64,000 nucleotides of DNA from Isoetes taiwanensis (lineage: Eukaryota > Streptophyta > Lycopodiopsida > Isoetales > Isoetaceae), in assembly GCA_021234155.1 (NCBI GenBank), contig JAJEKV010000012.1, positions 3,599,789-3,663,788 of the forward strand, read 5' to 3'. Numbering within the stretch: the stretch's first letter is position 1; each line of letters opens with the position of its first letter. Position numbers and translations under genes: made by a program. The notes beneath the pieces are model-generated. The model was not told the origin of the DNA. It did not search any database and worked only from the letters and a program-made list of their open reading frames with translations. This document shows, one piece after another, positions 16,731-59,656 of the stretch.

Positions 16731-16754
16731 TTCTTCAACATAATTCGCCATTGG

Positions 16755-22228: not shown

Positions 22229-22389
22229 CATGCCTTTTTTGGCAATATATTGGGAGAAATAAACAAATCCTTTATTTGTATTTAAGTTTTGTACATATTA
22301 TATTACATGCATCTATAATTACTAAAGCAATATCATCCTATGTTGTGTTTAACAAAATTACATTTGTAAGTGAAAATAACATATAAGAT

Positions 22390-24372
22390 CCATTTTTGCA
22401 GCAGATAATGAATGAAAAATGATATATAAGATCGATTTCACATGATTATAATGGTGCATAGTTGTGGATGCAAAGAAATGGTCTTTAAAATGAGCAACCC
22501 ATTGATGTTAGCATCTTGTTTTTTTATCGAAGGAGGACGATTACGACTGTGGAACATCAAATATAATTCATGTAACATCAAGTGCATTGAGTATGTCAAT
22601 ATGAGTCATTGCATATTACTCCTTATTTTATTCTTTATTGAAGGAGGATATATTTCGCTGATCATGCAACATCAAGTACAACTTGGACAATATCATATTA
22701 TTGGCCAATCTCAACCCGCGATCTCGCAGTATGGTGAGTTTAATGTTCTACCAATCGATCGCAGTATCATTTTATTATGAGCCTTACCGATGCTAGAAGT
22801 TTGTCATTGCCTCTGTGGGCGTACACTAATGAATTTATGGAGATATTCTATCTTACTTCCCACCCTCACATTAAGGAAATAGAAGACAACATAGTAAATA
22901 AAGTGCGTAAGTATGGTTGGAAGACAGTAAATGGCATAACCAGATTGAGGCATTTCACATTTGCTCCCCTGCAACATTGGGAAGTCATAGATGGCTACCA
23001 TATAACTTAGATATGTATATCATCCTCGTGAATCTACATTTCAACATGCATTATAAGATTTCTAGAGGAAGCAGTTCGAAATTAGTAAGAAATTCGAAGT
23101 TGAACTTGCCCTTTATAAGTGAAAATAACATATAAAATCGATTTACCACTTGTAAGGTGATTATAATGAATGAAAAATGATAGGTGAAGATCATTCTTCC
23201 CACTTCTTACATGGTGTGATTATATTGTGCATAGTTGTGATGCATCAATAGAAGACACAACATAAGAACAAAGCGGATGCGATGTTAAAGATTGCAAATG
23301 GGTATAACTAGGGATTCGTGCATTGCCATTTGCTCCCTCGCGAATATTGGGGAGCTATAGATGTATTACTAGATATAACTTAGATATGTATATCATCCAC
23401 AAAACTACATCTCAACATGCATTATAAGATTTCTATAAAAGAAAGTGTCTAGAAACTCGTAGTAAATTCGAGTTGAACTTAGCTTTTGTCTATACTAATA
23501 TCCACCTTTTGTTACGAAAGCAATAGCGATCCTATACAAGCTTTAAACTTAAATTACATTTATATGAAAAATACTGATATAATATAGATTTTCCCACTTG
23601 CAAGGCAGGATTATAATGAATGTAAAACCCACATATAAGTGATCGATTCTTTGCCACTCATATGTAATTATAATGGTATACTGTGGACTAATTCAATGGG
23701 TCTTCAAGGAGCAAAATATGTTAGCATCTTGTGGCGATTTCATTGATCATGCAAATATCAAGTACAACTCATACAACATCAAGTGTATTGCATATGTCAA
23801 TATGAGTATTCATTGCATATTAAGGAGGAGTATTTCATTGGATCATGCAACATCAAGTTGAATCTTGCCTTGCCTATATTATCCACCCCTTGTTGCTACG
23901 AAAGCAATAGCATCCTTATATATTATTGTATTTAAACTTAAATTACATTTATAAATGGAAAATAAATACATAATATCACCCATTTTTCCCACTTGCAAGG
24001 TGATTATAATGAACAAACTTATATATAAGATCGATTCTTCCATTCATGGTAATTATAATGGTGCATAATTGTAAACACACCAATGGGTCTTCGGCGAGCA
24101 AAATATGTTAGCATCTTGTATTTTAGTAAAGGAGGGCTTATTTGTTGATCATGCAACATCATGGCATTGCATATGTCAATATGAGTATTCTAGAAATACT
24201 ACTGATAGACATGGACAAGAATGTCAAATAGAGTGCGTAGAAAGCAATGTAATTTTAGAATACACAATTTCCGGGCCCAAAACCCAGGCAGAGAAAATCT
24301 TCACGCAACATGAATATGTAGAGGGCAAAGGTTAATAAAAAGAAGGATTAGGGGAACAAAGAATGTATCTCA
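22390..24372 (+). repeat. Nested sub-repeats inside array copy 1
   Basis: A unit with the landmarks GGTGATTATAATGAATG, ATATAAGATCGATTCTTCC, GGTGCATAGTTGTGGATG, GTTAGCATCTTGT and TGATCATGCAACATCAAG repeats four times with decay (starting near 22390, 23150, 23590 and 23990). The same nested units occur in copy 2 (36140-38660) and copy 3 (49540-51450). Short frames such as 22442-22780 are by-products of this repeat. Confidence 0.75.
22703..22765 (-). mobile_element. tRNA-like (SINE head) segment, copy 1 first site
   Basis: On the minus strand this carries a degenerate tRNA-like unit: GGTAGAAC, then TTAAACTCACCATACT, then a B-box-like GGGTTGAGATTGGCC. It is the poorest of the six copies listed. 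See 54502-54570 for the clearest one. Confidence 0.4.
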
Positions 24373-25379
24373 CATTCTCAAGTTCTTGTTTAAATTCGGT
24401 TTTTCCTGGGCTGGGAGAAAATCTTTTAGAATTTTTTGAAGTCATTCTCTAAGGTTTTGGGTTTCTTAGACGGAAAAGTTTTCCGGATCATCCAAAAATC
24501 GCGAAAGTAACATTTTTTTTTTTAATGATTTGGGTTTCTCAGTTTGGTGATAAGAATTTAAACGGGTCAAGTGCAGACGGCTTGAGGGAACCATGTCGGG
24601 TAAGTGCATGCTGTTTATTCAAGTAGATAGGAAGGACTTGAAATGGCCAATTTATTAAGGTAAAGGAAAGAGAGCTTCTGGGTGAAGATTTTGGAAGTGT
24701 GATTTATCGTGAGGGTTTGTGATCGATTTGTAACGCCATCAATTTGATCTTCTCAGAGAATCTATTGTCACGCTTGTTGCCTTCTTTTTGGTGAGTTCTT
24801 GATTTCTTTCTTCTTGCTATTCCGGCCTTCGCCTTTGATTAATCCCTAATCGTAATTCCTATTTTTGAATCCCGGCCGGGCCCTCTTCCCTTCCTTCACC
24901 ATTATTTTGATGCCTTTTAAGGACTTACATATAGAGCTGGCCTTTATAAAGCCAGTCAAGTCGCCTTCGAAAGGATTTAGAGCTACCGATGTAGGTAAGC
25001 ATATTATGTAGTTTATTTATATTTGTAAATGTGGAAACCTTTCATTACTACGTATCACCTTTACTTCCATTATTGTAACGAGGCAAATGTTTCCATCTAC
25101 AGAGCTAGAAAGATAGTGATGCACCTTTCTTTGAGTTTCAAGGCAGATTGGGTGGTAAACTATTTTGGCCTAGATGTAATACTACACCTCATGGGTGAAT
25201 CCAGGTAGAGGAGCTTCCTCGCCTTTCTTCTCCCATTCCATAAACTATTCTAGCAAGGAGGTATATTTTCTTTTTGTTTTTTGCGTTTATGACATCTTGG
25301 TTCAATGGTCAACTCAAGTATTTGATGCCTCCTCTTACGACATTCCTTACTAGAAAGACAAATTAGCGTCATAAAATCC

Positions 25380-25706
25380 ATGGAAAGCTATGTTCTTCGG
25401 GCAAGTGCAACATTATTTTTAGACGTGTCAGAAAACTCGATTATGAAAAGCACCTTGGCAAAGTTCTTACTCAAAAACATCTTCCTGACCAACAAGTCAC
25501 ACTCGACTGCGGATGTGACTTCAGATGGAAGCAAGGCACAAAAGTTAGAGGTAGGCCATCGCTCAACAAGAGTCTTCAATCAAGAGCTACCACAAGATGA
25601 CAAAATATCTGTGAGAGTAGCAAGTGCAAAAACCCATACCGCTTTCGGGTATGTTCGGTATATAATTCATATATGTCTGCTGGACCTCCATCATCTCTGC
25701 TCATGA
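25380..25706 (+). CDS. Exon-like open frame inside the 4.8-kb insertion
   Basis: A 108-codon frame from ATG to stop. The first 85 or so codons look protein-like (STLAKFLLKNIFLTNKSHS, then DGSKAQKLEVGHRS). The frame passes a GGTATGTTCGG donor at about 25648, after which it reads as intron. It is probably one exon of the captured or decayed gene of this insertion, not a free-standing gene. No domain recognised. Confidence 0.25.
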   Translation: MESYVLRASATLFLDVSENSIMKSTLAKFLLKNIFLTNKSHSTADVTSDGSKAQKLEVGHRSTRVFNQELPQDDKISVRVASAKTHTAFGYVRYIIHICLLDLHHLCS

Positions 25707-27499
25707 GTATGGTAAGTCCAAGATGCTATTCCGGCCCCATATGTTCTATTTTCCATGTTAGTTAAACACCTATAATTTATCTTCCTAACTTCTTCATGCA
25801 AATGCATTTTGTTCTTCGTGAAAATTGAAACCAACACACCCTCTTATATATACGCCAGGATGTCACCACATGCATGCGACCAAAGTTCAATATTATGTTT
25901 AATCATGTTCAACTTTACATCACAGCCTTTCTAATTCCTTTGTAGATTTCATAAGCATAAACTTTGCCATGTTAAACTTTCTCCGCATAGGGCAAATGTA
26001 CCACTCAATGCATAGAGCAATGATGTAGAGATGGCATTAAGGATGGGGCAGAGCATGGAGGGACTAGTGGATTTATGTTAGTAGCATTTTCATGTGCATG
26101 GACTTCCTCTCCATTTAAGATTGCCAAAGTTTTAGAGAGTTTTAGAGAGGTACCCCAACTACTTTGGTCCTTCCAATAGTTTTCTAATCTCTTTGTTTCC
26201 CCATTATTATAGGTATTGGCACTGATTTGTGCTCAAGGTACTCCAGCTTCTTCTGGCATCTTCTTGAGAAATGAGAAGCGGAGAGAACAACAAACTATGT
26301 TGTAGGCCACCACGAACCTCCTTTCTTTTTGTAATTGTATCCTTCGATCTAGAAACCGCACGGAAAGTGCACATTTAAGTATGCTGTATGCCACATGTAC
26401 TTTCTTCAGCCAGATCAAGGGACCTTTGATTTGGGGCCACAAATAGTATGCAGACCAGCTTTACTTCCATCATTGCCAAGCATAAATTATTTTAGGGATG
26501 ATTTAAAGAGCTTGCATTTTCTTCTATGCACCATAACTTAATTGCATCTCCATTATCGTAGGCTCTTCTACACACTAAGCTGCTTTCATTTTGAGGTCTT
26601 TTTCTCGCCAGCAAACATTGTGGCCCGTGAAAAGTGTCAAAACATTTTTTTCCGGAATTTAGGAAACGAGGCAATCCTGAGAAGGTTTCTTAGACATGGA
26701 TATAAAGACAACATGAATAGTAAAGCACTACTCCTTCGGGCATGCAACCGGTGCATATCCCTCGAAATGGTCTAGAGGTAATAAATCTATTCTGGGTATT
26801 TGCATCGTATCTCACGCGAATGTTGTCTTTACACGTAAGACCAAGAATAAATGCTGTCTTTCGGTGATGTTTCGCCAAAGTGCATCGTCAAGAAAAATCT
26901 TTTGGTCGTAATGATTATATGTGCATATTGTGAATCCATTAATGCTTTGAAGCGCTTGAAAACTAAGATGTTAGATGGCACAGCATAACAAATGAATTGG
27001 AAGTTGCTGAATTTAGTCTATTTGATATCTCGATGCTCGATGGCCATTCTTCTATCATGCTTTTACCTTTGCTACATATTTCATTGTTGTTAGCTTCCAT
27101 GACGCATCTACTTGCATGTTAACCGAACACGTTATTGACTCAGCCTTTGATTTTCTCCGCTTTGCATCTCTCTCATCACGTGCATGAGCCTTTCGATGAG
27201 CCTACCTTCATTATCAATCGCCCTACTAATCTTGCTTTTATCAATGGCTGCACGAAGATTCTCATTTTCTTTCTTTTACCGTGATTGAATTTGGTCAGTA
27301 CTGAATACTAGAGATCAACACTCAAACCAGCCTATGGTGGAGACCGTAACATTAGTGCATGATTTAAAAGGTGGGTGTGTCTACAATATGATTATTAGAC
27401 AAAATAATATTATATTTCATTACCATACCTACATATTGGGTGCTTTTGATTAAAATTACCGGGTAAATGCCAATGTGCATAGAATGCCATTGTGGAGCA

Positions 27500-27622
27500 A
27501 ACGGCTTAAAGAAAACAAAAGTGGGCTAACGAGATAAGATTTCTATAAATTGTGGGCAAGTGGGGCTTAAAGAAAACAAATAGTAGGTCAAGCATAAGAT
27601 TTCTTATATAAATTGTGGTTTC
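27500..27622 (+). repeat. Direct repeat pair, about 60 bp each
   Basis: GGCTTAAAGAAAACAAA, then a short variable part, then ATAAGATTTCT and ATAAATTGTGG, occurs twice in a row (about 27502 and 27565). It lies inside the private insertion of copy 1. Confidence 0.6.
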
Positions 27623-29814
27623 TACTTTGCACATTCCCTCGCTAGTAATGTAACAATTTTTTAAAATATATCACGGGTTTTTTAACTATAACATTGTTTT
27701 GTGTTGCCCTTTAACATTTTGATGTATTTAGTGTGATGGTTCGTTGATACAAGAGTTTGGTAATTTTACTTTAGAGTTCTCAATAATTGTAATGTTGTAA
27801 ATTGGCTTCAAATGATACCGTGTCCATCCATCTTCACTTATAATGTTAGTAGCAAAGAGAAATTGCTTTGCAATTTCATTTATGAAAAGCTTAAGCAGCT
27901 TTGCATAGTACCAAACATGATTTTGTCCGGACATGATTTTGCCTCAATACGTAACAACACATTAAGTGTGTACCTAATTGGGCCTCGAATTGCATATTGC
28001 CAAACTGCGGATGTGGTGGCACGTGGGCAAGCAAGTCAGTCCTCGCTTTCATCTTGCTAAGATGGAAGGCCAAATTGCATTTTGTGTTTTCATCGGCTCT
28101 CTATGTATGTTAAAATCCTTTAGAGCTATATATATAAATCCTTGTGAACTACATGTAAAGCGAACATTGAAGGTAAACAACAAATATCATTTGCTGTACT
28201 ACTTCAATGCCTCTAGGTAGAAAACTCAAAAATCTCGAAATGATTTCAACAATTTCATTTAAATCAAGAATCATGGTGTCAAACATAAGCAAGAATAATC
28301 TAATCAACACTATATGTCGCTCATCATTCACAGTGTGAGGCAAGGTATTTGCAAAGTAGTTAAGTAGTTAATCTATGTCCATTGTGTATAAATGAACATG
28401 GCTTACATTGGGCAATGACTGATTATTTACCGTATTGTACCCTTCATACCCAAAAAGGTGGTACTTTTGCATGAGATCAAATCATTACCGTGGCCCGACA
28501 ATATAACTATGAATGTGTTGAGCATCGACAATATAAATGTGCAAATTCTACCAAATTATTGGATAATATAAAGTGTCATTGGCACCTAAAATCAAGATTT
28601 TGGACACATCCTGAGCAAGTGCCGATGGAAGGATGTAACATGTCCAAAGACCTAAGGATGTAACAGATGTCCACACCTATCAACTCAGCCATACCTTTTT
28701 GTGAATGTAGATACTTAGACACTCGCCTTCAATTAAACATTTTGTTCACAATCATTGGTACAAATGTGAACCTCCTCACCCTATCAATGAACATACCATT
28801 AAATACTCCATCTATATCTACATGACATTGACAACAATATCATCACAATAATTATGTGAGTAGTTTATTGCTCATTGCAATTTTATAATCTCCATTGTAG
28901 AAATATCTTTGTTTCTTTCCATTGTGGTGCAAAGCCTCATAGCTTGAGGCCACTAGATTGTGACTTACTCAATGCATGTATTGATTATTAGGAGCGTAAA
29001 CGCTAATGGAAGGTTGCATTGTCGCCTTACATTGTATATTGCCTTCCATTTCTCTCTTTATTCCCTATGAAATATGGCTAAGCATTATACATGTCTATAT
29101 TGGATTAGATTTATACCAAGAACGGGCACCCGCTACTAGTAATAATAAAGTTTATTTTAAGAGGCTTGGTAGTTCTCAACCAAATACCTGCACTCAAAGG
29201 AAACATAGGCTCCACTTTAAAGGTGCATGCACGCAAGAGCGTAACGTAGTGTGTAAAGCGATTGTGTACATGGAGGCATAGAGACAAATGGACTTTGAGG
29301 AACTAAGCAAAAATGGCATAAATGAAAGGACAAGATCGAGAAAGAAATGGATATATGCCAAACATAACAACATCACTTAAAAATCAAGGACAAAACCAAT
29401 GTTAGCAACTTAACAATCTTCAAGAATTGGATTCGAAACAAGGCCATTAACCAATATCCAAGAGAGTTAAGATATTTAAAACCTCTCACAAACGCCGCCA
29501 AATAATAACCATAACCATACACGCATCGCGTGCATCAAATATATAACCCTCCATCTTTGTAGCAAGGCCTTTAACAAACCTTCATAGAGTTCCTTGGTCC
29601 ATAAAAATCAACTTAAAATAATAAAAAATAAGAGTTTAATTCTATGTTAAAGATTAAAAAGGAAACTAGTTCTTCCCTCAACCGACTAAACGCTAATCTT
29701 GGTTATGATATCATTTTGCAATTGGTCTTAAGAATTCCACGCCATCAGCGTAGAATAAAACCACACCACTCAAAATCAGAATCCACTTTGTCCGGCAACT
29801 AGCTACAACTTGGA

Positions 29815-29845
29815 GGAAAAATAAATAAATAAATAAAATAAATGA
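29815..29845 (+). repeat. (AAAT)n microsatellite
   Basis: A short (AAAT)n run at a position shared by all three array copies. The other two are near 39609-39630 and 52312-52344. Its length differs between copies and is longest in copy 3. Confidence 0.8.
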
Positions 29846-31994
29846 AAACTCAAATCTCAATGTTCATATATCGAGGGAACTTATACCTTGGTTGATATAA
29901 TCGTGAGGTATGCCCCAAATAGAAAAACTAGATATTTATGATAGGACTAAAATTCTAGGGCTAAGAAAGGCGTAATAGTTAGGTCGAAACGTAAACAGCA
30001 AAGGCGACTCTCAGGCTGCCGTAAGCCCGGAAGAACAGCGGACCTTAGGCTTCATTCGCTCAAACCACAATACTTTATCATGCTCCGCTTGGCTATGATT
30101 TTGGCTTTCATCTTGTTCCGCCTTCACCACCGCTTTGGTTCTGCCGCAAAGGTGTTAAGGTGCCGTGGAATTGCAAAAAAGACGTATAGACACGTGTAAA
30201 ATGGCTTCGATTTCGTAATTTATAGCAAGCAAGAAAAACCTGTGTCTTGAAATCGACAAACTACAAAGCCCCTTCTAGCGCCGAGGTCGCCATTGCATAA
30301 AGAATTTGATGAGGTAACAATGTGATTGATTTCGAAAAGCAAAAAACACAGTGAAGCCATTGATGTATGAAAAAATTGATTCCTTAAGATGATCCCGGAA
30401 CCGCTTGACCTTTTGTTGCAGAAATCCGTGACACAAACGATAATCCGGGTCACATAGGCGACACGGTAACCATTACTGGGCGCTCAGTGAACACACAGAA
30501 AAATTTGGGACAGTTGAAACACATAGAGAGAGAACTCAAAGTATTTCAATTTGGCTAAAACCAATTAACTTTAAACTTTCTTATGAAGCTCGCTCTTCGT
30601 AATAATATCCGTAAGGCCACTAAACCTTTTCCCCGGACTCAAATGTAGATTAGGCTCTTTCCATTACAAATCAAAAAGTTACCTTTATCGCGGTTTCTAT
30701 TACCGGATATATGGCATTCTCCTGGGAGTGCAAATCGCCTGAAAATCTTGATACTTCAAGGAATGATCTTCTTGCCCTTTTCGCTTTCCATGAATCTTCC
30801 TCTTCGATTGATGCCTTATCGCACAAGGTCGGGGAGAGCAAAGAATTCGATTTGGTTTCAAGCTTTAGGTGAGAGCATCTACTCCAAAGAACTGCTACAC
30901 AAAGAAATCGAGAAACAAAATGTAACAAGACCTCTAGAGAAAACTAAGATAGAAAGGATCGTGAACATGAAAACCGAAAGGTGAAAAGAGGAAAACCAGG
31001 TCGCAGGCATAAACAAGAAAGTAAACGTGAAAGGAAAAGAACAGAGTCGGCAAGAAAAGAACAGAGCTCCAAGCAGGATCGCTTCTAACACTAGGAAGGA
31101 GAAAGAGTGCTCATGGCATCTCCTTTCATGACCAAACTCAGTCTGGGCACATATTGAGACCCGCATAGTGAAACCATTATGGCCGATTAAAAAACTACCC
31201 TTTGGTTTCGAGAAAAACCCCCGACAATAATGGGTGGGGATCACTAACCCATGCTAGTCATAAAATGTAATATAATCCTGTACCCTCATGCTGACCAGCC
31301 TTGCTCGTGAAATAAATATTACAACAAAGAAGTTGAAATTAAACTCATGTTCGAAAGTTGTCATTATTGAATCAACTTCGCTTCGCCTTTGAGCCTAGAA
31401 TCCAAACACTAAGTTCTAAAAATGCGCTTACCACCGCTTCCCTCAGATACACAAGCAAGAAAATGACCAAAAGCCACCAAGGCCATCCGCATCGAGCCTC
31501 CAACCACCACCAAGGCTTCCAACCAAAAGTAATAAGGGCCTCCATCAGGGCACACAAAGTCGCTAACTAGGGCACAAAGGCCTCCATCCAGCATCTAGGG
31601 CTCTCAACCGTGCACCTGACTGGAACCCCAAACACACAACAACTAAAATTCAAACCGCAGCCCACAAGAACGAGAGATGCAACGAGAGAGTCGTGATAAA
31701 GAAGAAAAGGGACTAAAAGAACCTAAATAGAGCTAGAGGAAAATGACAAATAACTAAAATGCTAAATACCAGATTTAGAACCTTGTTTTCCTTCTATTCT
31801 AAGGGAAACTAAGGAAAACGACATTTCATTGCATATTAATTAAGGAGGAAGTATTTCGTTGATCATCAAGTACAACTTAGACAACATCATCAAGTGTTGC
31901 ATATGTCAATATGAGTATTCATTGCATACTAATTTAAGGAGAAAGTATTTCAAGGATCATGCAACATCGGCACAACCAGGACAACATCATACAT

Positions 31995-32060
31995 GGCCAA
32001 TTCAACCCGCGACCCCGAAAGTACAGGGTTTAATGGGTTTAATGTTCTACCACCGATCAT
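31995..32060 (-). mobile_element. tRNA-like (SINE head) segment, copy 1 second site
   Basis: Minus strand: a decayed version of the tRNA-like unit described at 54502-54570. GTAGAACATTAAACCC is followed by GCGGGTTGAATTGGCC. The A-box is poor. Confidence 0.4.
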
Positions 32061-32192
32061 GCATCTTTTGTTATGAGTCTTACCGATAGAAGTTTTGGTC
32101 AATCGTCTTTGTGGGAGGTCCATAAGTTTATCAACAAATTTTATGGAGAGAGACTAGTAATGGTGCCAAAGGTTGTCAAGTATGTTGGGAAC

Positions 32193-32874
32193 TCCTGGAT
32201 AACTGTTTATCTGATCGAATCCAGGTCCATGAGCGGACGGAATGGATCGATCTCGATTGAAAAAGATGATGATTTCGTGCCGATGTGCCGAGATTGCGTT
32301 TATGGATCCCTGCGCGTGATTTTGATGCCGCGATTACGCGCGCAAGCTGCGATGATGCCTGACGCAGCGATAATGCGCCAAAGTCGATCTGATCCGATCT
32401 GATCAGGGCGTTCTCGCCGATTCTGCCGTTCGCAAGCGCAAATTGGCGTTTGATCCGATTCTCGATAACCGTGCTGACGTTGCCTGATCTTTGCAAGTGC
32501 TTTGATCTGATTTGCCTGATGCCCGATCTCGCCGCGCTCGATGTTTTCGCCCGCAGCTGACGAGTTTTGAGTCGTCGCCTGCCGATCTTTGATCGACGTC
32601 GATGTCGACTGGATGCCCCGCCGATCGCAAGCTGCTCGATGAAAGCAGTTTGATCGCGATCGCCGAAGAGTTTTTCCTGAGTTTGTTCGTCGCCTGCCGA
32701 TCTTCCGGAAGTTTCGAGAAACGACGATCTGCAAAGTCGAGCCGATCGCGGATTTATAAAGCGATGACGCCTCGATGATGCCTTTTTGATCGTTGATCCA
32801 CTGGTTATAATTTTGTTTTCGATTTTATCCTGAAGATCGAATTTGATCCACTTTGATGAATCCGAGGAGATTTC
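32193..32874. other. GATC-rich block private to copy 1
   Basis: About 680 bp with higher GC than its surroundings and very many GATC, CGAT and GCCGATC words. It sits where copies 2 and 3 have the pyrimidine tract. Homology is lost after GTTGGGAAC and resumes at GATGCTATC. A 240-codon minus-strand frame (32898-32176) covers it, rich in Arg, Ser, Ile and Gln. I treat that frame as a by-product of the biased base composition because no domain or splice context supports it. A TATAAA lies near 32752 (minus). The origin is unknown. Confidence 0.6.
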
Positions 32875-33465
32875 GATGCTATCTAATGTCAAGGACAAAA
32901 GCCCCTTTACATTTCATGGATATTATCACACATTAAGGAAATAGCCAACATGGTAAACAAAGTGGATGTGCGATGTTAAAGATTGCAATGGGTATAACCA
33001 GATTATAAGTATTGCCATTTGCTCCCTCCAACATTGGGGATTGTTATTACTACATAGATATGTATATCCACAAAGCATTCAACACGGCCAGTAAGATTTC
33101 AAAGGAGTCATTTCATACTAGAAATTTTAGTAGTAAAATCCTAGTTGAACTTAAGCTTTTGTCTATATTATCCACCCTTTTTTTGTTATATTAACCATGT
33201 CTCCACATTTCATTTCTGCGAACCAAACCCTGTCCATTTTTCGGGCCTCACATCATAGTTATGTTTTTCTTATTCAATTATGGTTCATTAAGATTGATGA
33301 TTTGTAGAAGGGACCTTTCTACAATCAACTGACAGCTCTTTGAAGGTTGGCTATTGCCATCATATTAGCAACTATTTTTAGAGTACAATGACACATAATA
33401 TAGCAATTAGGAAAAAAGTAATACATAATTTTCTTTTATTTATTTTTGACTTTAGATGAAAGGAT

Positions 33466-34230
33466 AAGATAGAATAGAATGGTTTTTCCTATGACCTAAT
33501 GAAGGAATGCAAAGAAACATACTTGTCCGTATTAAAACCCTCCTAAGGGTTTTCAAGGAAAACCATGGCAAGAATAAGAATGCCACCGACTATCCTACCG
33601 TCGGATTTGTCGACCCCACGACTAAGTGTTGGGAGGCTCAAGAGCCCTCAAGCTGATTATGGTTGTCAATTATAATTGGGGCTTCTATGGTTTTAAATTA
33701 TGAAATATGAGTTCACTCTAAGTCTTGGAAGATGGAATTGATGCTGAGGGTTCTAAACTCTACCAAAATAATTCAATAAACCCTAATAAAGTCAAGCTTG
33801 ATCAATAGAACCGTGGAGTTTAGAAGAGATTATTTTTATTTTAAATTTATATTTTTTTATACCAAATCCCATTTATACAATTGTTTTAGGAATATGATCT
33901 ATGGTTGTCTATTTAGGAATTATTATTTGCTAACTCCATATTAAATCCCTTAGAACCCTTTGTTATTGTGCTTACATATGTTAGGTGTGTCCGAGGACAT
34001 ACGCCTCGCGATATCCATGACCTCGTGGAAGGTAAGGATCCCCATACATCCACGTAAGCCCATGCACAATATTACATGTAGCTGCTGGGCCGTGCCTAAC
34101 CACTCAAAGATAGCGTCCAAATTGATCGACGTTGGACAGCCTTTTGAAGGATATGGCATTCATTCTCAATGGCTTCATTTGGCAAAGATTGATAAAGCCT
34201 ATCCCGACGCCCCAACCCATCTCCCGCCTC
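33466..34230 (-). mobile_element. LINE 3' end within array copy 1
   Basis: On the minus strand the element ends in a (TATTC)n tail (33466-33480), preceded by the 3' region that matches 44620-44990 of the plus-strand LINE. A stretch of about 320 bp (33645-33970) has no counterpart there and may be a later insertion shared by all copies. The element is cut at about 34230. No reverse transcriptase remains. The same junction is present in copy 2. Confidence 0.7.
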
Positions 34231-47636: not shown

Positions 47637-48868
47637 TATCCTCACGGTCATTCGTCTTCATGATTCCATCCGCCATGTAGGATTTGTAACCCAAATTTTT
47701 TTACGTTAGTTTAGCTTTTGCCCTAATCTAAATGTGACATTATTTTTGCCATATGGAGGTTATAGCTAGGCCAATTCCATAAATGTGCATGTAAGTTAAA
47801 ATTCACAATTGTGAAGTAATAGAGAGTATTTCAACCTTCAAAAGTATCTGATTACCATATCCTCCTACCATCCCAATTTACTTGTACTTGTGGATGTGTA
47901 TTTGTTATGCATTTCATCGGTGTAGGATGTGTCTCACCTTAAAACAATCATCAGTTTGCCATGCTTTATCTATATCCCGCCAACCGGGACCGGTTAAAAA
48001 TAATACGTAACTAAATTGATTTCCTAATATTGTCCCTTTGCTCTGGATTTTCTGGGTTCGTTGCTTACTCGCATAAAAATAGATAACCTATCGAGGGTTT
48101 CTTTGCCGGTTTAGAAGCGGGAAAAGCGGAAGGGGAAGTCAAAACAGTCTTGTGGACTTACATTTTGCATTTTTAGGGCCTTTCTTGTTGGCTTTTGCTT
48201 TTAGTTTAACTTGAAATCCGTTTACTATGAAGTCCTATGAGCTCCAAATTTGTCCTAAAGCGGTCTTAATTAAGGAATGCTAAAATCAACGTGGTTTACA
48301 TAATTTAGATGATAATTTACCACAAGAACCACTTGGATTTGAATATATATGTTCATTATGATGAAAAGCATAGAGAATGGTTAAAGGGAAGGACAATATT
48401 GTGCAAACTCTTCAAGGATTACTCTGCCAATTGGTCTCGGTGGACGCTAAAAACCTATTCTATTCTATTCTATATTTTTGAACTATGGATTGAAGATAAA
48501 GCTTTCATAGCATCATAATTTGACAGATGGGCCTATATTTTTAATTAAGTGTACAAGTCCTTTTGGATAACAAACATTAGTACGGATGTATTTGCAATCA
48601 TGAAGTGATGTTGTTGTTTTGTCATAATCATATCTGCTAGGTTATTGGACAAAGTCGCGATAGGCTGTAATTTTCTTCAAAGATTATAGTCCCTTTTGAG
48701 CTATGGATTGAAAATAAGCTTTTCATAACAGCAATGGCCCATACCATGCAATTATGCTCTTTAAACTGTTTGCATCAACTTAAAGAAGATGCTACGAGTC
48801 TAATTTTCATGCATTTTTATCTAACTATTTCTAGAGCTCACATTTTCTACGGGAGGAACACTTGAAAT

Positions 48869-49150
48869 TTGGAACTTGTTATTCCACATGTAAAAAATAA
48901 TTATGTAGCTACAAAGATGTTTTCTGAAATGTTCCCAGAGTGTCGATTGCAGCTACCTTGCATGAGTATTTTGATGATTTTAAACCAGAATCGATATGAT
49001 GACATGAATCATCTTCCTTCAAAGCCAAAGGTTAGTAGCAATGCACATACATTCAAAGCTAAGGTGAAACCAATTCCAGATCTTCATGAAGTGGGAAACC
49101 AAGACTTTAATTACACATACGATGCATGCATTCAAGATGCTTTATTTTAG
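48869..49150 (+). CDS. 93-codon open frame at end of copy 2, unknown
   Basis: An ATG-to-stop frame with protein-like composition: ELVIPHVKNNYVATKMF, MFPECRLQLPCMSILMI, RYDDMNHLPSKPKVSSN, VKPIPDLHEVGNQDFNY. Part of the frame continues upstream of the ATG. In copy 1 the same region (about 35460-35760) is broken by indels, and in copy 3 it is absent. No family recognised. It may be one exon of a decayed gene carried by the repeat. Confidence 0.25.
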   Translation: MELVIPHVKNNYVATKMFSEMFPECRLQLPCMSILMILNQNRYDDMNHLPSKPKVSSNAHTFKAKVKPIPDLHEVGNQDFNYTYDACIQDALF

Positions 49151-49873
49151 AAGTATCACAATTCCACAAAAATTATGCACGAGACTAAGGTTCTTGGCCA
49201 TCAACATGTCATGAGAATACATCTATCTACTGTTTGTAAAACCAACATTTTGTTTTGCATTGGCATATTTAACTTTAATTTGGGGAAACTCATAGCCTTT
49301 GGCATTGAATGTTATTTATGTTGTGAATGCGATTACCTATGTTCCTGATTGATTTATGGCTCATGCCTTTTTTTTTGGCAATATATTGGAGAAATAAACA
49401 AATCCTTTATTTGTATTTAAGTTTTGTACATATTATATTTACATGCATCTATAATTACTAAAGCAATATCATCCTATGTTGTGTTTAAACAAAATTACAT
49501 TTGTAAGTGAAAAAATAAATATATAAGATCGATTTTTGCAAGGTGATTATAATGAATGAAAAATGATATATAAGATCCCGTTCTTGCCACTTACATGGTG
49601 ATTATAATGGTGCATATATTTGTGGATGCAGAAATGGGTTCTTTAAACGAGCAACCCATTGATGTGTTAGCATCTTGTTTTTTTTCTTGCGGAGGGCGTA
49701 TTTCATTGATCATGGAACATCAAATACAATTCACACAACATCAAGTGCATTGAGTATGTCAATATGAGTCATTGCATATTACTCCTTTTTTATTTTATTC
49801 TTTTATTGAAGGAGGATATATTTACGTTGATCATGCAACATCAAGTACAACTTGGACAATATCAAAGTACATT

Positions 49874-49931
49874 GGCCAATCTCGAACCCGTGACCTCGAG
49901 TATGGTGAGTTTAATGTTCTACCTTTGGATC
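49874..49931 (-). mobile_element. tRNA-like (SINE head) segment, copy 3 first site
   Basis: Minus strand: GATCCAAAGGTAGAAC, then ATTAAACTCACCATACTCG and AGGTCACGGGTTCGAGATT. The B-box GGTTCGAGATT (about 49879-49889) is perfect in this copy. Confidence 0.55.
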
Positions 49932-52900
49932 GTGCATCATTTTATTATGAGCCTTCTTGATGCTAGAAGTTTGTCATTGCCTCTTTGTGGTGGTGTCTAT
50001 AAGTTTACCAATGAATTTATGGAGATATTCTATCTTATCTAATCTCCAAGGACAAAAAAAAGTCCTTACATTTCATGGATGTTATCATTGACATTAAGGA
50101 AATAGAAGACAACATAGTAAATAAAGTCGTATGCGAAGGTTAAAGATTGCAATGGGTATAAAAACGATTGAGGCATTGCCATTTGCTCCCTGCGCGAACA
50201 TTGGGAAGTCATAGATGGCTACTACATATAACTTAGATATGTATATCATCCGTAAATCTACATTTCAACATGCATTATAAAGATTTCTATAAGGGAAGTT
50301 TTTGCACGGAAATTGTAGTATTAGTAAAATTCAGTTGAACTTGCCCTTTATAAGTGAAAAATAACATATAAAATCGATTTTTTACCTAATTTGTAAAGGT
50401 GATTATAATGAATGAAAAATGATATATAAAGATCCGTTCTTCCCACTTTACATGGTGATTATAATGGTGCATAGTTGTGGATGCATCAATAGAAGACAAC
50501 ATAGTAAAACAAAGTGGATCACGGATGTTAAAGATTGCAATGGGTATAACTAGGATTGGGCATTGCCATTTGCTCCCTGCAATATTGGGGAGCTATAGAT
50601 GGCTACTAGATATAACTTAGATATGTATATCATCCACAAAACTACATTCCAACATGCATTATAAGATTTCTATAAAAAGAGTTTTTTTGCCTAGAAACCG
50701 TCGTAGTAAATTCGAAAGAACTTAGCTTTGTCTATACTATCCACCCCTTGTTGTTCTACGAAGCAATAGCATCCTATATTGTATTTAAAACGGAAATTAC
50801 ATTTATAAGTGAAAAATAACATATAATATAGATTTTTCCACTTGCAAGGTGATTATAATGAATGTAAAAGCGACATATAAGATCGATTCTTGCCCATACA
50901 TGGTAATTATAATGGTGCATAATTGTGGACGCATCTAATGGGTCTTCGAAGGAGCAAAATATGTTTAGCATCTTGTATTTTTAAGTAAAGGAGGCTTATT
51001 TCATTGATCATGCAACATCAAGTACAACTCATACAACATCAAGTGTATTGCATATGTCAATATGAGTATTCATTGCATATTGGGAGAAGTATTTCATTGA
51101 TCATGCAACATCAAGTTGAACTTGCCTTTGTCTATATTATCCACCCCTTGTTGCTACGAAGCAATAGCATCCTATATTGTATTTAAGCGAAATTACATTT
51201 ATAAATGAAAAATAACATATAATATCGATTTTTCCCACTTGCAAGGTGTTTATAATGAATGTAAACGACATATAAGATCGATTCTTTCCACTTACATGGT
51301 AATTATATAATGGTGCATAATTGTAAAACAATTCAATGGTCTTGAAGGAGCAAAATATGTTAGCATCTTGTATTTTTTGTAGTAAAGGAGGCATTATTTC
51401 ATTGATCATGCAACATCAAGTGCATTGCATATGTCAATATGAGTATTCTAGAAATACTAGGACAAGAATCTTTGAAATAGAGGCTGAAGAGAAAAGCAAT
51501 GTAATCTTAGAAGGCCGTGACAATTTCCCGGTTCAAAACCTGTCTTGCGAGAGAAAAATCTTCTACATAACATATGAATATGTAGAGGGCAAAGGTTAAT
51601 AAAAGAGAAGGATTAGGAACAAAGAATGTATCTCAATATAATAATAAAGTTTATTTTAAGAGGCTTGGCACTCAACCAAATACCCACCTTGAAAAAGGAA
51701 ACATAGGCTCCACTTTAAAGGTGCATGCACGCAAGAGCAAAGATTATAGAAAGCAGTGTAGCGGTTGTGTACATGGGCATAGAGACAAATGGACTTTGAG
51801 TGAAAACTAAGCAAAATGGCATAAATGAAAGGACAAGGCTGAGAAAAGAAATGGATATATGCCAAACATACCAACATCACTTAAAAAAATCATGTGACAA
51901 ACCAATGTTAGCAACTTAACAATCTTCAAGAATTGGAGCAGAAAACAAGGCCATTAACCAATATCCGGTATAGTTAAGATATTTAAAACCTCGACAAACG
52001 TCAAATAATAACCATAACCATACATGTACGTGCATCAAATATAACCCCTCCATCTTGTAGCAAGGCCTTTAACAAACCTTCATAGAGTTCCTTGGTCCAT
52101 AAAAATCAACTTAAAATACCAAAATAAGAGTTTAATTTATGTTAAAAGATTAAAAAGGAAACTAGTTCTTCCCCAACCGGACTAAACGCAATCTTGGTTT
52201 AGCGTGGTGCTATCATTTTTACCAATTGGTCTTAGAATCTATGCCACTAGCAATAAAACCACACCACTCAAAACTGGACTGGCAATGTCGGCAACTAGCT
52301 ACAACTTGGAGGAAAAAATAAATAAATAAATAAATAAATAAATGAAACTCAAATCTCAATGTTCATATATTTGAAACTTATACCTTGGTTGATATCTGGG
52401 AGGTATGCCCCAAATAGAAACTAGATATTTATGATGGGACTAAATTTAGGCCTAAGAAAGGGCGTAATAGTTAGGTCAAAATGAAACAAGGCTATGACTC
52501 GTATAATCTGGTCGGGAAGAACGACCTTAGGCTTCATTCCTACTCAAACCACAATCTTATCATGCCTCCAGTTGGGCTATGATTTTGGCTTCATTCCTAG
52601 GTGTTACCCCGCTTTGACCACGGTTTTGGTTCGCCAAAGGCGTGTTAAGGTGCGGGAATTGCAAAAAAGACAGACGTACCGCGAGGTAAAATGGCTTCGA
52701 TTTACGAATTTATAGCAAGCAAGAAAACCTGTGTCTTGAAATCGGCCGACCACAGGCCCCTTCTAGCAAATGAGGGTAAAGCCCTGACAAAAATTTGACC
52801 GAGAGGTAACCTACAGGATTGATTTCGGAAAAGCAAACACAGGGTAAAGGCGATTGATGTATGAAAAATTGATTCGAAGATGATCCCGAAATCGCTTGAC

Positions 52901-54501
52901 CTTTGTTGCAGCGGGTAGACACAAGCGATAATCGGTCACATATTTTGTCGGGGGTCGGGGCATAACGGGTAACCATTCCAGCTGAATAAAGTGAACACAC
53001 AGAAAATTTAAGGCGACAAACACATAGAGAGAACAAAGTATTTCAATCTTGAAAACCACCAATCCTTTAAACTTTCTTATGAAGCTCGCTTCCTTGAGAA
53101 TATCGGTAGGCCACTCTCAACCTTTCCGACTCAAATGTAGATTAGGCTCTTTCCATTACAAATCAAAAGTTACCTTTATCATTGTTTTCTATTAGCTGGA
53201 TATATGGCATTCCGGGGAGTGCAAATCAACTCTCGAAAATCTTGATACTTCAAGGAATGATCTCTTGCCCTTTCTCTTTCCATGAATCTCCTCTTTTCGG
53301 ATTGATGCCTATCGCTTTACAAGGTTTGTAGAGCAAAAGACTTCCATTTGGTTTCAAGCTTTAGAGGCATCTACCGGCAAAATTTGGTACCACACAAATC
53401 AATCGGGCAGCCAAGACCCTAGAAAACTAAGATAGGAAAGGATCGTGAACATGAAAACCCGTGAGCGGGGAAAAGAGAAAAACTTAGGTCGAGCGCATAA
53501 ACAAGAAAGTAAACAGAAAGGAAAAAGAGTCGTAGGCAAGAAAAAGTCAGCCCGAGGATCGCCCAACACTAGGAAGGAGAAAGAGGCTCATGGCATCTCC
53601 TTTCATGACCAAACTCGGTCCAAGTACATATTGAGACCCCGGATAGTGAAACCATTATGGCGGGATTAAAAACCTGCGCCCTTCGGGTTTTCGAGGAAAA
53701 ACCTACAGCAATAATGGGATCACTAACCTATGCTAAGTCATAAAATGTAATATAACTTGTACCCTCATGCTGACTAGCCTTGCCGGGTGAAATAAATATT
53801 ACAACAAAGAAGTTGAAATTAAACTCATGTTCAGTTGCCTTCCCTATTGAACCGTCTTGAGCCTAGAATCCAAACACCTTGTTCAAGTTCCAAAATGCGC
53901 TTTACCTGCTTCCCATACACAAGAAATGACCAAAAGCCACAAGGCCATCCAGACATCAGAGCCTCCAACCAGCCACCAAGGCTTCCAACCAGGCACAAGG
54001 GCCTCCACTAGGCACAATAGGCCAACTAGGCACAAAGGCCTCCATCCGGGCCGCGAGGGCCTCAACGGTGCACTAGGCCTCCAACAAAATATTAGCTTAC
54101 ACAATTAAGGTTCACAATTTGGGAAGCGGGGGGTGGGGGCCCAACACTAGGAAGGAGAAAAGAGATGCAACGAGAGAGGCGATAAAGAAGAAAAGGGACG
54201 GAAAAAAGAACCTAAATAGAGCTAGAGAAAATGACAAAATAACTAAAATGCTAAATACCTCGGTATTTCCTAGAACCTTGTTTTCCTTCTATTGGTGAAA
54301 CGTGAAGGAAAACGACATTTCGTACATATTAATTAAGGAGGAAGTATTTGCGTTGATCATGCAACATCAAATTTACAACGTAGACAACATCATCAAGTGC
54401 ATTGCATATGTCAATATGAGTATTCATTGCATATTAATTAAGGAGAAAGTATTTAGTTGATCATGCAACATCAAGTACAACTTAGACACCATCAAGTACA
54501 T

Positions 54502-54570
54502 GGCCAATCTCGAACCCGTGACCTTGAGTATGGTGGGTTTAATGGGTTTAATGTTCTACCACTGGATCAT
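54502..54570 (-). mobile_element. tRNA-like (SINE head) segment, copy 3 second site (clearest)
   Basis: Read on the minus strand it gives CCAGTGGTAGAACATTAAAC (A-box and D-arm-like), a short duplicated TTAAACCCA in the anticodon region, then CAAGGTCACGGGTTCGAGAT (T-arm with B-box), then TGGCC. Spacing and motifs match a tRNA-derived RNA polymerase III promoter, as in plant SINEs. The sequence beyond it, toward 54330, is the GATCATGCAACATCAAG repeat, which may be the SINE body. Whether it is still transcribed cannot be seen. Confidence 0.6.
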
Positions 54571-54815
54571 GCATCTTTTGTTAGAGCTTTACTGATGGAA
54601 GAAGTTTTGTCAATCGTTGTCTCTTTGTGGGGAGTGTCCATAAGTTTATCAACAAATTTATGGAGAGACTAGTAATGGTGCCAGTGTTGCTGGGCATAAG
54701 TTGGGAACACCATTGGATGAAAACCCCTTCATCTCGGACTCCTTTTTCATAAATCTAATATATAATAAACCAAGTCCAGCATTGCCGAAGCTATAATAGG
54801 TTTTGTGTATTCGAC

Positions 54816-55640
54816 ATCCTTCCTCTTTCCTTTGTCTTTTTGCTCTATCCCACGTTTCTTTTTTTTTCATCATTCTCTTACGCACTTTCTTTTTTTCTTT
54901 TTCCTTTTTCTATTTTTTCCTCCACGTTTCTTTTTTCCCTTCTCTCGTTTTAACCCCTTCTCCCTCCCCTTTTCATTTCCCTTCCCTTTCCCCTTTTCCT
55001 TTTCACTTTTCCTTTTTTTTTTTCTCATGGACTTTTTCCTTCCTTTTTAGGTCTTTCCCTTTCTTTCTATTTTTTCCTTTTCTCTTCTTTTTCCTTTTCT
55101 CTTTACCTTTTTTCCATGTCATTTTTTTGTTTCATTTTCCATCTTTTTCATGTGCCCTTTTCTTCCTTTCTCCACCTCTTCCTCTTTATCCCATGCCCTC
55201 CGTTTCCTATTTCTCTCTCCCCTTTTCTTGTCCGGGTTTTCCTTTCCCTCCCCCCTTTCCATCTCCCTTTTTCCTTTTCCTTCCTTTCTCCACCATTTCC
55301 CTTTTTCTCTCGTGCCTTTTCCCTTTCCTTTCTCCCTTCCTTTTCCTTTTCTCTTTCCCTTTCCCGCTTTTCCCATGTTTTTTTTCCATTCTTTTTTAAG
55401 ACCTTTTTTACATTCCCCTTTTTGTCCTTTCCTCACCCTCTTCCCTCTTTTCTCTTTTTTTTTCCTTTCCCTATTCCCCTCTTTCTTTTTTTTCTTTATA
55501 TTTTCAATGTTCTTTTTTCCTTGCTTTCTTTCCCTTTCCTCACCCTTTGCCTCTTCCATTTTTTTCTGGTACCCCTTTCCCCTTCCTCTTTCCCATTTTT
55601 TCCTCTCCCTTTCCTCGTGCCTTTTTCCTTCCTTTTCCCT
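54816..55640 (+). repeat. Pyrimidine tract, left part (copy 3)
   Basis: The same C/T tract as in copy 2, about 0.82 kb here, without the LINE. It includes TCATGTGCCC at the point where the LINE sits in copy 2 (about 55147). Open frames of 80-198 codons are compositional artefacts. Confidence 0.9.
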
Positions 55641-55832
55641 AAGGTCACGGGTTCAACATACTCGTTGTGGTAGTGGCCATACAATGTAAAGTTGGTGGGG
55701 GAAGGACCCACTTCAGCAATGTAAAGTGGTGGGGCCGAGGACCATCAGGTGTGTTGTAAAGTGTCACATGTCCGTCCGGATGCCTTTGGCGTGGCGTTAA
55801 AATCTCTTCTTATTCTTCTTCTTCTTCTTCTT
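55641..55832 (+). mobile_element. SINE copy inserted in the tract of copy 3
   Basis: A 190-bp island of mixed sequence in the C/T tract, absent at the matching place in copy 2 (about 45480). It starts with AAGGTCACGGGTTCAACATA, the T-arm/B-box end of a tRNA-like head. It continues with a GTGGTGGGG-rich body containing two copies of AATGTAAAG and GGTGG, and ends in a (CTT)n tail at 55806-55832. The A-box is missing, so the copy is 5'-truncated. Confidence 0.65.
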
Positions 55833-56511
55833 GCCTATCTTTTTCCTTTTTCCTTTTTGCCTTCCTTTTTTCACCCTGTCTCTTTTTTCTATGTGCCCTT
55901 TTCCTTTCCCCTTCCTTTTCCATTTCTCTTTCCACTTTTATATTCCCATACCTTTTTCCATTTCTTTTTTCCTCACCTTTTTCGTAGCTTTTTTTTCCTC
56001 CTTTCCCACCCTTCTTTTCCTTTCCCCCATTTCCCTTTTTCTTTTCTTTCCCCCCTTTCTCATGCTCTTTTTCCGTTTCTTTTTCTTTTTCCTCACCCTT
56101 TTCTCTTCAAATTTTTCCGTGGCCCTTCCTGTTTTTTCGTTTTCCTCTCCCGTTTCCTCGTGCCTTTTTCCCTTCTCTTTTCCCCTTTCCACCTCCTTTT
56201 TCGTTTTTCCCTTTCCTTTTTATTTTTCCATGCCTTTTTGTCTATCCACCATTTTTCTCTTCCCCTTTTTTCCTTTCCTTTTTCTCCTTGCCTTACCCTT
56301 TTCCCCTTTTCCCTTCCATTTCCTCCCTCCCCTTTTCTTTTTACCTTATTTTCCTTTTTTCATGCTATTTTTCATTTCTCACCTTTTCCTCTTCCCCTTT
56401 TTCCCCATGCCTTTTTCCTTCCCTTTTCCCTTTCCCTCTTCCCCTTTCTCTCGTGCCTTTTACCCTTCATTTTCCCTTTCATCCTCCCTTTTCCTTTTCC
56501 TTTTTTCTTTT
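55833..56511 (+). repeat. Pyrimidine tract, right part (copy 3)
   Basis: Continuation of the C/T tract after the SINE. It ends at TTTTAAGAGATCAAA, as in copy 2 (46136). Left plus right parts total about 1.5 kb, the same as in copy 2 without the LINE. Frames of up to 254 codons are not genes. Confidence 0.9.
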
Positions 56512-57270
56512 AAGAGATCAAAAGCGATAACCAATCATAGTGGAGGGAAGTCATCACGATAAATCTTGGCCTTGGATGCAATTTGATAATCCGAGCCATC
56601 TAAATTAGGGGTGGTCCAACACTTACGGTGTAAACTTTATAATATAAGATTCTATGCTATCTAATGTCAAGGACAAAAAAAGCCCTTACATTTCATGGAT
56701 ATTATCATTGACATTAAAGAAATAGAAGACAACATGGTAAACAAAGTGGATGCGTATGTTAAAGATTGCAATGGGTATAACCTGTGATTGAGGCATTGCC
56801 ATTTGCTCCCTCCAACATTGGGGAGCCATAGATGGTTACTACATAGATATATTATAACATCCACAAAGCTACATTCAACACGCATTTAAGATTTCTACAA
56901 AGGAGTCATTTTGTTGCCTAGAAATTGTAGTAGTAAAATTCGAGTTGAACTTGCGCTTTGTCTATATTATCCACCCTTTTTGTTATATTTAACCATGTCT
57001 CCACATTTCATTTACTGCAAACCAACCCAATCCATTTTTCAAGCCCGCCATAATTGCTAGTTATGTTTTCTCTTATTCAATTATGGTTCATTAAGATTGG
57101 ATGATTTGTAGAAGGGCACCTTTCTACAATCAAAATCAATGTTTCCCTTAGTTGCTACATGTTGTCATATTAGCAACTATTTTTATACAATGACATAATA
57201 TAGCAATTAGGAAAAGTAATACATAATTTTCTTTTATTTTTATTTTTTTGACTTAGATGTGAAAGGATAT

Positions 57271-59070
57271 GATAGAATAGAATGGTTTTTCCTATGGACC
57301 TAATGAAGGAATGCAAAGCAGACTTATTACTTGTCCAGATTAAAAACCCTCCCCGAAGGTTTGAGAAAACCATGGCAAGAATAAGAATGCCACCGGACTA
57401 TCCCTTGGCCGCCTGGATTTGTCGACCCTCTAACAATATGTTGGGAGGCTCTGGACATCTCTTTAGATTATGGTCAATTATAATTGGGGGCTATGGTTTT
57501 AAATTATGAAATATGAGTTCACCTAAAGTCTTGGAAGATGGAATACTTAGGGGCTCGAACCTCTACCAAAATAATTCAATGTCCTAATAAAGATGTTTTG
57601 ATCAATAGAACCCGTGAGCTAATATGATTATTTTTTTATTTTAAATTTATATTTTTTATATCAACCCTACGATACAATTGTTTTAGGAATATGATCTATG
57701 GTTGTCTATTTAGGAATTATTATTTTACATCCATATTAAATCCCCTAGAACCCTTGTTATTGTGCTACATATACATGTTAGGTGTGTGTCCGGGACATAG
57801 CAAGCTTTCCGATATCCATGACCTCGTGAAGGTATGATCCCGGACATCCGCACGTAAGCCCATGCACAATATTACATGTAGCGGTTGGCCAGTGCCTAAC
57901 CAATTCAAATAAGCGTGTCCAAATTGATCGTCACATTTGGATGGCTTTGAAGGATATGGCATTCATTCTCAATGGCCCATTTGGCAAACGATTGATAAAG
58001 CCTATCAAGACGTGGCTCCCCAACCCATCTCGCCCGCCTTAATTTAGAGATAGAGGACCAGACAAATCAAGGCAATGAGTCTATGCCTTTTTATAGGCAA
58101 ATGGATGCCGCAGTGGCATTCTTCGGGCCCCATTCCAATGTGGGGTTTATATGGCGCTGGTAGTATGTTGTCTTGGCCTGTTCAAGGGCGCTGGCATTCC
58201 AGAGATTGGTCAAGCATCAATCTTTTGCCTTAAGCTATGGTGATCTACCTCTGTTTGTACCTGTATGCACCTGTGCTCCTACACATTCTATCTGGCCAAC
58301 CATCGAGTTCTCTTTTCCTTTCAGCTAGCCTTGAGGCATAGCGGCCCCATTGCGATGGTATAAGCTAGGTTAGGGAGATGAGCATCAACCATATTGACCA
58401 CCTTCTAAAAGTAGACGATGTAGTGATCAAGGCCGCCCTCTGAAGAGGCAAGAACAACAGGATTTGATATGGGACCGTGGACGTCACCCCCAGTGCCTGT
58501 GATAAGAAGGTGTTCTGCACCTGCTCCAAGTCATTCTAGGTAGCAAGGGATACCACCAGGCTCAGGCTCCACTAACACCATGAACAGGTGGTGCGACTGA
58601 TGGATCCAATCGTACAGCTCCACTCTATGACTATTGTTCTGCATTACATATAGTGCCTTCCAGCCCATTGTCCCTCTTACCTAGATGGAAGTGTCCCAGT
58701 GCATATAGTAGAAGGAAATTCCACTCTAAAATATTTGTAGGCAGATGCCATTTCCATATTTTGCCCTGGTAACTAGAGGAGGGAGTCCTCTGCTGATGTG
58801 AGGATGATATGAGGACCACCTTAGTCATGGCCAGGTTGATGTGCATGTCAGTCACCCCGGCAGAATGTGTCCAGGGCCTTGTGATGGCACTACATGTCCA
58901 CCGGAGTATAAGTTAAGAGGTCCATATCATCAGCATATATTAGCTGCATGGTGATCTGGTGCAAAAGGTGAGCTCTGTTGCCTCCATTGTTAGCAAGTCA
59001 GCTCTCCAAGTGATCAATGTAATGCCCAGAGGAGTCATATTTCTAGTCCCTAAGTCGAGATGGATAGGCA
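57271..59070 (-). mobile_element. LINE copy at the right end of the array
   Basis: On the minus strand the 3' tail (TATTC)n is at 57271-57283, and the 3' region and RT C-terminal part extend right to about 59070. The catalytic box is intact: IYADDMDLLTYTPVD, with YADD at 58926-58937. It is followed by NLAMTKVVLIS (about 58800), a degenerate KYLG region (near 58715), LYDWIHQ (about 58610) and a NDLEQVQ-like box (about 58525). Frames shift, so there is no full protein. It shares its 3' insertion point with the short LINE ends of copies 1 and 2 but keeps about 1 kb more of the element. Confidence 0.75.
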
Positions 59071-59650: not shown

Positions 59651-59656
59651 AAGATT

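Follow-up and report, generated by a model that had tools for sequence, protein, structure and literature searches.

The window analysed here, a 64,000-nucleotide stretch of contig JAJEKV010000012.1 of Isoetes taiwanensis, contains three homologous copies of a segment arranged head to tail, together with inserts private to single copies and a break in a long interspersed nuclear element (LINE) that is common to the first two units and absent from the third. The favoured interpretation, to which we assign a probability of roughly 0.62, is that an apparently non-coding, probably methylated intergenic plant segment of approximately 10 kb was duplicated in tandem and that the divergence between its copies is in part error. 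Judged from the assembled letters, the array is an ordinary tandem segmental duplication, and a considerable share of the apparent 12–25% divergence would be base-calling error at methylated CG and CHG sites in an unpolished nanopore-type consensus. In biological terms it adds another old tandem duplication to those of transposon-rich plant DNA and is of use only for local history.

Three homologous copies in tandem

Comparison of the window with itself yielded ten self-matches of 1.1–4.4 kb and 75–88% identity (E = 0, far past chance), which define three homologous stretches with the same orientation and order, starting at 22228, 35970 and 49361. The copies are adjacent and head to tail, and their homology reaches beyond transposable element families. 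In the long BLAST matches copy 1 is 75–82% identical to the others, and copies 2 and 3 are 83–88% identical to each other. The original prediction of three copies with blocks in constant order is borne out, homology starting one base before the positions it had given (22229, 35971 and 49362). The blocks delimited by the self-comparison are designated A, B, C (pyrimidine-rich) and D:

Copy 1: A 22228–24372, B 29140–32168, D 32872–35970; block C absent
Copy 2: A 35970–39043, B 39139–42451, C up to 46138 (split by the element LINE2), D 46270–49361
Copy 3: A 49361–51833, B 51843–54683, C 54684–56513, D 56650–58032

Tandem segmental duplications in transposon-rich plant intergenic DNA are among the closest known arrangements. 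The array resembles them in its head-to-tail, kilobase-sized units of different ages, in its private transposable element insertions and in the presence of a transposable element at the break; it differs in that no gene was found in the unit, the junction would lie within a LINE and the divergence is probably inflated by error. Satellite DNA is also tandem and head to tail, but the window holds only three units of ~10 kb and these are strongly rearranged between copies. The noisy-looking consensus raises the prospect of a poor assembly, in which alleles or repeated reads had been laid end to end. Such an artefact is highly improbable: the copies carry distinct private inserts of 0.17–4.8 kb and branch as ((2,3),1) at motif-poor sites, and more than two alleles would be required.

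Differences between copies centre on CG and CHG words

Alignments of block A (first 1.1 kb), block B, block D and the end of D revealed 8.5–28% substitutions, 22–45 insertion or deletion (indel) events per kb and transition/transversion ratios of 0.74–1.25. The differences are clustered, with a variance-to-mean ratio of 2.1–3.3 (20-column bins, ten comparisons) against permutation maxima of 1.0–1.5. When trinucleotide classes, each comprising a word and its complement, were followed from either member of every copy pair to the other, CAG/CTG emerged as the least conserved of the 32 classes (0.062). The next worst were CCG/CGG (16%), CGC/GCG (18%), ACG/CGT (20%) and TCG/CGA (27%); conservation in the remaining 27 classes was 39.5–76%. 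Composition-matched words are kept far more often (AGC/GCT 0.427, GAC/GTC 0.576, GCC/GGC 0.508), and CAT/ATG is unchanged in 1306 of 1756 cases. Among 324 CAG/CTG sites, counted in both directions, 22 have the same word as partner (a tally that handles gap columns differently from the one giving 0.062), 33 have deamination products, another 63 a single change of some other kind, 118 changes at two or three bases, and 88 gaps or insertions. Substitutions occur at a rate of 0.40 at CG/CHG, dropping to 0.12 at distances above 10 bp; the transition fraction lies at 0.42–0.58. Isolated 1-bp indels lengthen or shorten a run in 131 of 255 instances, a count that stands without a control.

The same words are scarce in the array itself: the observed/expected ratio of CAG+CTG has a median of 0.38 and a range of 0.11–0.96 over 36 one-kb bins from 22001. 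Elsewhere it is 0.39–0.77 in the first 12 kb, 0.84–1.40 in the six bins of 12001–18000 and 0.50–1.23 at 58001–64000. Within the left flank, positions 1–2000 and 5001–6000 combine a CpG observed/expected ratio of 1.09–1.26 with CAG/CTG values of 0.43–0.60; the error pattern of the array may recur there.

Deamination yields C>T and G>A changes, not transversions, multi-base changes or indels. It was dropped as the whole cause of the differences: 206 of the 324 CAG/CTG partners differ at two or three bases or by gaps or insertions. Multi-base changes, indels and a transition share of about one half fit nanopore miscalling better than deamination. The centring of the differences on CG/CHG words and their multi-base and indel character are what nanopore error at 5-methylcytosine would produce, the effect of distance being partly nonspecific.

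It is unlikely that the differences are simply true mutations in very old copies whose methylated cytosines, in CG and CHG, mutate fast. Change is greatest in the CG and CHG contexts, which is what methylated plant repeats should show, 33 of the 324 partners are deamination products, and published nanopore error levels lie far under those that the error interpretation needs. These points in favour of mutation are opposed by the transition fraction of ~0.5, by the same 206 partners and by the involvement of neighbours to about 10 bp. Very unlikely is a variant in which the scrambled sites are real and methylated CG/CHG cytosines in the repeats of this plant undergo, besides deamination, multi-base and indel changes in clusters, with error-prone repair following active demethylation as one conceivable route.

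Published reports offer a partial precedent for error. Dcm motifs accounted for ~70% of consensus errors in Klebsiella pneumoniae with then-current Oxford Nanopore Technologies base-callers (Wick et al., PMC6591954), modified nucleotides (methyl groups) make base-calling harder (PMC7501810), and ~96.4% of potential errors in a nanopore assembly of maize A188 fell in transposons or other repeats (PMC8188678). As in the Dcm case, differences here centre on cytosine motifs, which are probably methylated, and include homopolymer length changes; unlike that case, they affect CG and CAG/CTG (plant CG/CHG contexts) and reach a far higher level (PMC6591954).

Several observations weigh against the error interpretation. 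The Dcm-motif error was only about 0.4% (PMC6591954) and the maize A188 assembly had a base accuracy of 99.82% after polishing (PMC8188678), and the nanopore-error literature examined holds no direct demonstration of a CHG effect. Published error levels are far below the level needed here, so error is a probable rather than an established explanation. Furthermore, four control word sets also diverge at the word, by 0.27–0.34 in pairs with copy 1, against 0.46–0.52 for CG/CHG, and by 0.19–0.23 between copies 2 and 3, against 0.37. Two of the four (AGG/CCT,GGA/TCC; GCC,AGC,GGT) are about as low ten columns away (0.05–0.10), so that the divergence far from motifs and the decay with distance are only partly specific to CG/CHG. 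The stronger evidence for error is the conservation of the words themselves relative to composition-matched words.

At sites at least 10 columns from a motif, copies 2 and 3 differ by about 5%, and copy 1 differs from the others by 8–10%. Taken from the letters as assembled, 75–88% identity is a poor guide to copy age. The region had been described as a local record of duplication followed by transposition: the order of events is supported, but the notion of a clean record is undermined by the CG/CHG-centred differences. An assembly of this kind may mislead on repeat ages, transposable element dating and crossing-over risk; that the array is prone to unequal crossing-over is plausible. A check independent of reads consists of comparing the conservation of CAG/CTG and CG between tandem copies with that of composition-matched words. 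Near-zero CAG/CTG conservation accompanied by many transversions and indels is a warning sign for repeat dating.

Unit length, phase and junctions

The copy starts are 13,742 and 13,391 bases apart, close to the 13.5-kb unit originally proposed. Private sequence makes up ~5.5 kb of copy 1, where block C is absent, and copy 2 holds a 2.56-kb LINE. Once private inserts are removed, the unit contracts to about 10.2–10.8 kb (units 3 and 2) and the 13.5-kb figure falls: the near equality of the spacings is coincidental, different inserts being responsible in each case. The phase requires revision as well. Positions 32872–37078 and 46270–50489 form one unbroken match that passes straight through the landmark at 35971/49362. 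Homology does start at the proposed unit start in copy 1, but continues upstream of it in copies 2 and 3. The landmark at 22229 is the left truncation of copy 1 against LINE1, which renders junctions near 35971 and 49362 doubtful. The following LINE-related sequences are relevant:

20884–22227, minus strand: LINE1 fragment, without both ends of the extent of LINE2; abuts the array at 22227/22228
42452–45010, plus strand: LINE2, copy 2 only, 2.56 kb, (CTATT)n-like tail, frames broken
57268–59121, minus strand: LINE3, interpreted as a single antisense LINE extending past unit 3 on the right, with a (TATTC)n-like tail close to 57268
33465–34232, minus strand: LINE 3'-end fragment of unit 1, with matches within 33469–33587 and at 33987–34221 and none between
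46878–47632, minus strand: LINE 3'-end fragment of unit 2, with matches within 46882–47003 and at 47380–47609 and none between

LINE1, LINE2 and LINE3 are presumably LINEs, named by general resemblance apart from a YADD word at 58937 (minus strand) in LINE3; Pfam scans (six frames, X at stops, E up to 0.01) gave no reverse-transcriptase match in any of the three, whose frames are broken. In block D the 3' part of LINE2 is matched in antisense (69–72% identity over 218–235 bases) and, ~0.4–0.5 kb away, there are weak matches to its 3' end and simple-repeat tail (19-base matches, E 0.003–0.007). LINE2 and the unit fragments may thus have a (TATTC)n-like tail in common; LINE1 lacks the 3' end.

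The LINE similarity ends near 34232 in copy 1 and near 47632 in copy 2, and corresponding non-LINE sequence then follows in both. In copy 3, DNA and translated alignments carry the similarity of LINE3 to LINE2 or LINE1 across 58032, with a DNA-level end at 59027; the stretch 59028–59121 is a frame read by eye. Over the 150 bases before the break, identities number 115 for copies 1 and 2, 126 for 1 and 3, and 126 for 2 and 3; over the 150 bases past it they number 121, 10 and 6, respectively. A random-pair control gave 0 to 1 over tiny overlaps and is uninformative. The junctions would thus be placed at about 34232 and 47632, inside one old LINE whose break is, we infer, the duplication junction. 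LINE3 would represent that single old insertion, from 57268 to about 59121, and copy 3 is probably complete rather than cut short. The resulting junctions and units are:

34225–34240: putative tandem junction 1, where the LINE 3' fragment gives way to the following unit; units 1, 2 and 3 align before it, only 1 and 2 after
47625–47640: putative tandem junction 2, with the same LINE break point as junction 1
22228–34232, plus strand: unit 1, without the first ~1.7 kb of the unit, truncated on its left side by LINE1, and without the pyrimidine-rich block
34233–47632, plus strand: unit 2, 13.4 kb, or ~10.8 kb minus LINE2
47633–58032, plus strand: unit 3, 10.4 kb, or ~10.2 kb minus the 168-bp insert; complete in the favoured model

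The word TGACTTAG is found at 57249 and 59122, flanking LINE3, and its only other plus-strand occurrence, at 46859, is the matching place in copy 2. Its reading as a LINE3 target-site repeat is suggestive only. The idea that LINE1 and LINE3 are halves of one LINE split by the array was rejected, as their LINE coordinates overlap.

A number of results tell against this placement of the junctions. Concerning the target site, 98 of 3648 control windows have a word of at least 8 bases in common with the same 40 bases, and TGACTTAG lies ~11–14 bases from the LINE3 tail. Approximately 0.4 kb within the LINE piece of the unit (in copy 3, between the tail part and 57769) is without a match to LINE2. 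A further difficulty is a step in divergence. At sites at least 8 columns from CG/CHG motifs, units 2 and 3 diverge over their initial 1.7 kb at 20/195, 36/203 and 22/231 positions (10–18%), a level resembling that of copies 1 and 2 in block D (54/424 and 44/365; 12–13%). Right of 35970 the motif-poor divergence is lower, at 12/342 and then 34/432, and the other bins of copies 2 and 3 are mostly lower too (range 3.2–12.2%, at least 8 columns from motifs). Junctions at 34232 and 47632 consequently need a later exchange between units, and the step would fit better with a second duplication breaking near 35970/49361.

The step is an argument for the phase of the original prediction, in which units start at 22228, 35970 and 49361, the LINE was already truncated at its 5' end on insertion, and a rearrangement with a second LINE in the right flank deprived copy 3 of its final 1.7 kb. 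The change at 35970 would then be the passage from a copy 1–2 stretch to a copy 2–3 stretch; AGGAT, a weak target-site-like match, also lies past the truncation point. This phase is possible yet doubtful: the switch of copy 3 to the flank LINE coincides exactly with the truncation point of copies 1 and 2, copy 3 is as near to copies 1 and 2 up to the switch point as those are to each other, and recombination between LINEs would be expected within a common LINE segment.

Order of events

The branching order was sampled at 2011 columns without gaps, each 10 or more from the nearest CG/CHG motif. A difference confined to copy 1 occurs at 133 of these, one confined to copy 2 at 58 and one confined to copy 3 at 28; at 6 columns no two copies agree. 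Pairwise divergence at motif-distant sites is 198/2021 for copies 1 and 2, 172/2039 for 1 and 3, and 103/2121 for 2 and 3. Both sets of counts identify copies 2 and 3 as the younger pair, ((2,3),1). From their presence or absence, LINE2 in copy 2 and the 168-bp block in copy 3 appear to have arrived after the split between these copies, and the 4.8-kb block appears to have entered copy 1 after the older split.

Under the favoured interpretation with junctions inside the LINE, a ~10-kb segment ending within the older antisense LINE3 would have been duplicated head to tail and then again, resulting in three units, the third of which may have originated from unequal crossing-over or from a second tandem duplication. 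Transposable elements would have entered later, unit 1 receiving the 4.8-kb element, unit 2 the LINE and unit 3 the short element. A LINE-associated rearrangement would have taken away the left end of unit 1.

Private inserts and unusual blocks

Besides LINE2, the units contain the following inserts and blocks:

24373–29139: 4.77-kb insert, copy 1 only, facing a gap at the aligned site in copies 2 and 3
55641–55808, plus strand: 168-bp insert, copy 3 only, possibly a 5'-truncated short interspersed nuclear element (SINE)
32190–32871: GATC-rich and CpG-rich block of copy 1, ~0.68 kb, ends partly set by eye, in the place of the pyrimidine-rich block
45011–46138, plus strand: pyrimidine-rich block of copy 2, 90.5% C+T; the part left of LINE2, 42000–42480, is 78% C+T
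54684–56513, plus strand: pyrimidine-rich block of copy 3, 85% and 91% C+T on either side of the 168-bp insert

Private insertions had been predicted in all three copies, and the 4.77-kb insert, the LINE and the 168-bp block are indeed private to copies 1, 2 and 3, respectively, at aligned sites. The GATC block, likewise listed as an insertion, is not a simple one, because copies 2 and 3 hold a pyrimidine-rich block of ~1.8 kb in its place.

Helitrons are characterized by TC...CTRR ends between A and T, a 3' hairpin and Rep/Hel. At its right end the 4.77-kb insert has CTAG and then T, in keeping with a Helitron, and the left end fits TC only if noise is allowed for. Neither a strong 3' hairpin (by eye), nor a Pfam match, nor convincing terminal repeats, nor long terminal repeats (LTRs) were found in this insert, and a Helitron-like nature is unproven from its ends. 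The 168-bp insert contains a B-box-like GGTTCAA word, noted by eye. ARAGORN predicted no tRNA gene in it, a weak test that a truncated SINE would escape; the earlier SINE label is unproven.

The GATC block has 24 GATC words against 2.6 expected (32190–32880) and 75 CG in 691 bases, and returned no match in a plasmid collection. Its 27 CAG/CTG sites mean that, unlike its surroundings, it is not depleted of these words. The pyrimidine-rich blocks, about 1.8 kb in copies 2 and 3 and absent from copy 1, display loose internal periods of 6–132 bases. When 7.8 kb of unit 3 was compared with the plasmid collection, one record was retrieved whose best place (11% cover) fell in the pyrimidine-rich part, and it was rejected as compositional. 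Block A contains short sub-repeats, and pieces resembling the end of B and the start of D stand side by side within it, at 36290–36942; block C and the GATC block therefore sit between two sub-repeat parts.

Domain searches and flanking sequence

The six-frame Pfam scans detected no families over 22001–37402, 51801–55002, 41203–46202 and 55003–58052. Over 37201–41202, 46201–51002 and 58001–64000 they yielded only an AP2 domain, located in the right flank and indicative of plant DNA, and ten chosen pieces scanned at E up to 0.1 yielded this domain alone. Together the scans covered 22001–51002 and 51801–58050 of the array, where frame breaks could hide a family. Rfam gave 0 families at the gathering threshold and ARAGORN 0 genes.

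Kilobase-sized repeated units without a recognised gene and a long polypurine strand in the unit are features also to be expected of a large non-coding retroelement in a tandem array (LTR-internal-LTR-internal). It is very unlikely that such an array, rather than a segmental duplication, accounts for the locus: there is no six-frame Pfam match over 22001–51002 and 51801–58050, and the self-comparison disclosed no terminal repeats beyond the unit repetition, local sub-repeats and LINEs.

In the left flank (1–22202) the only Pfam match is to DUF7869 (E 1.4e-08), whose place at about 8036 on the plus strand was guessed from a HTHEDVD word. The AP2 domain (E 1.1e-10) lies just right of the array, at 59657–60064 on the minus strand.

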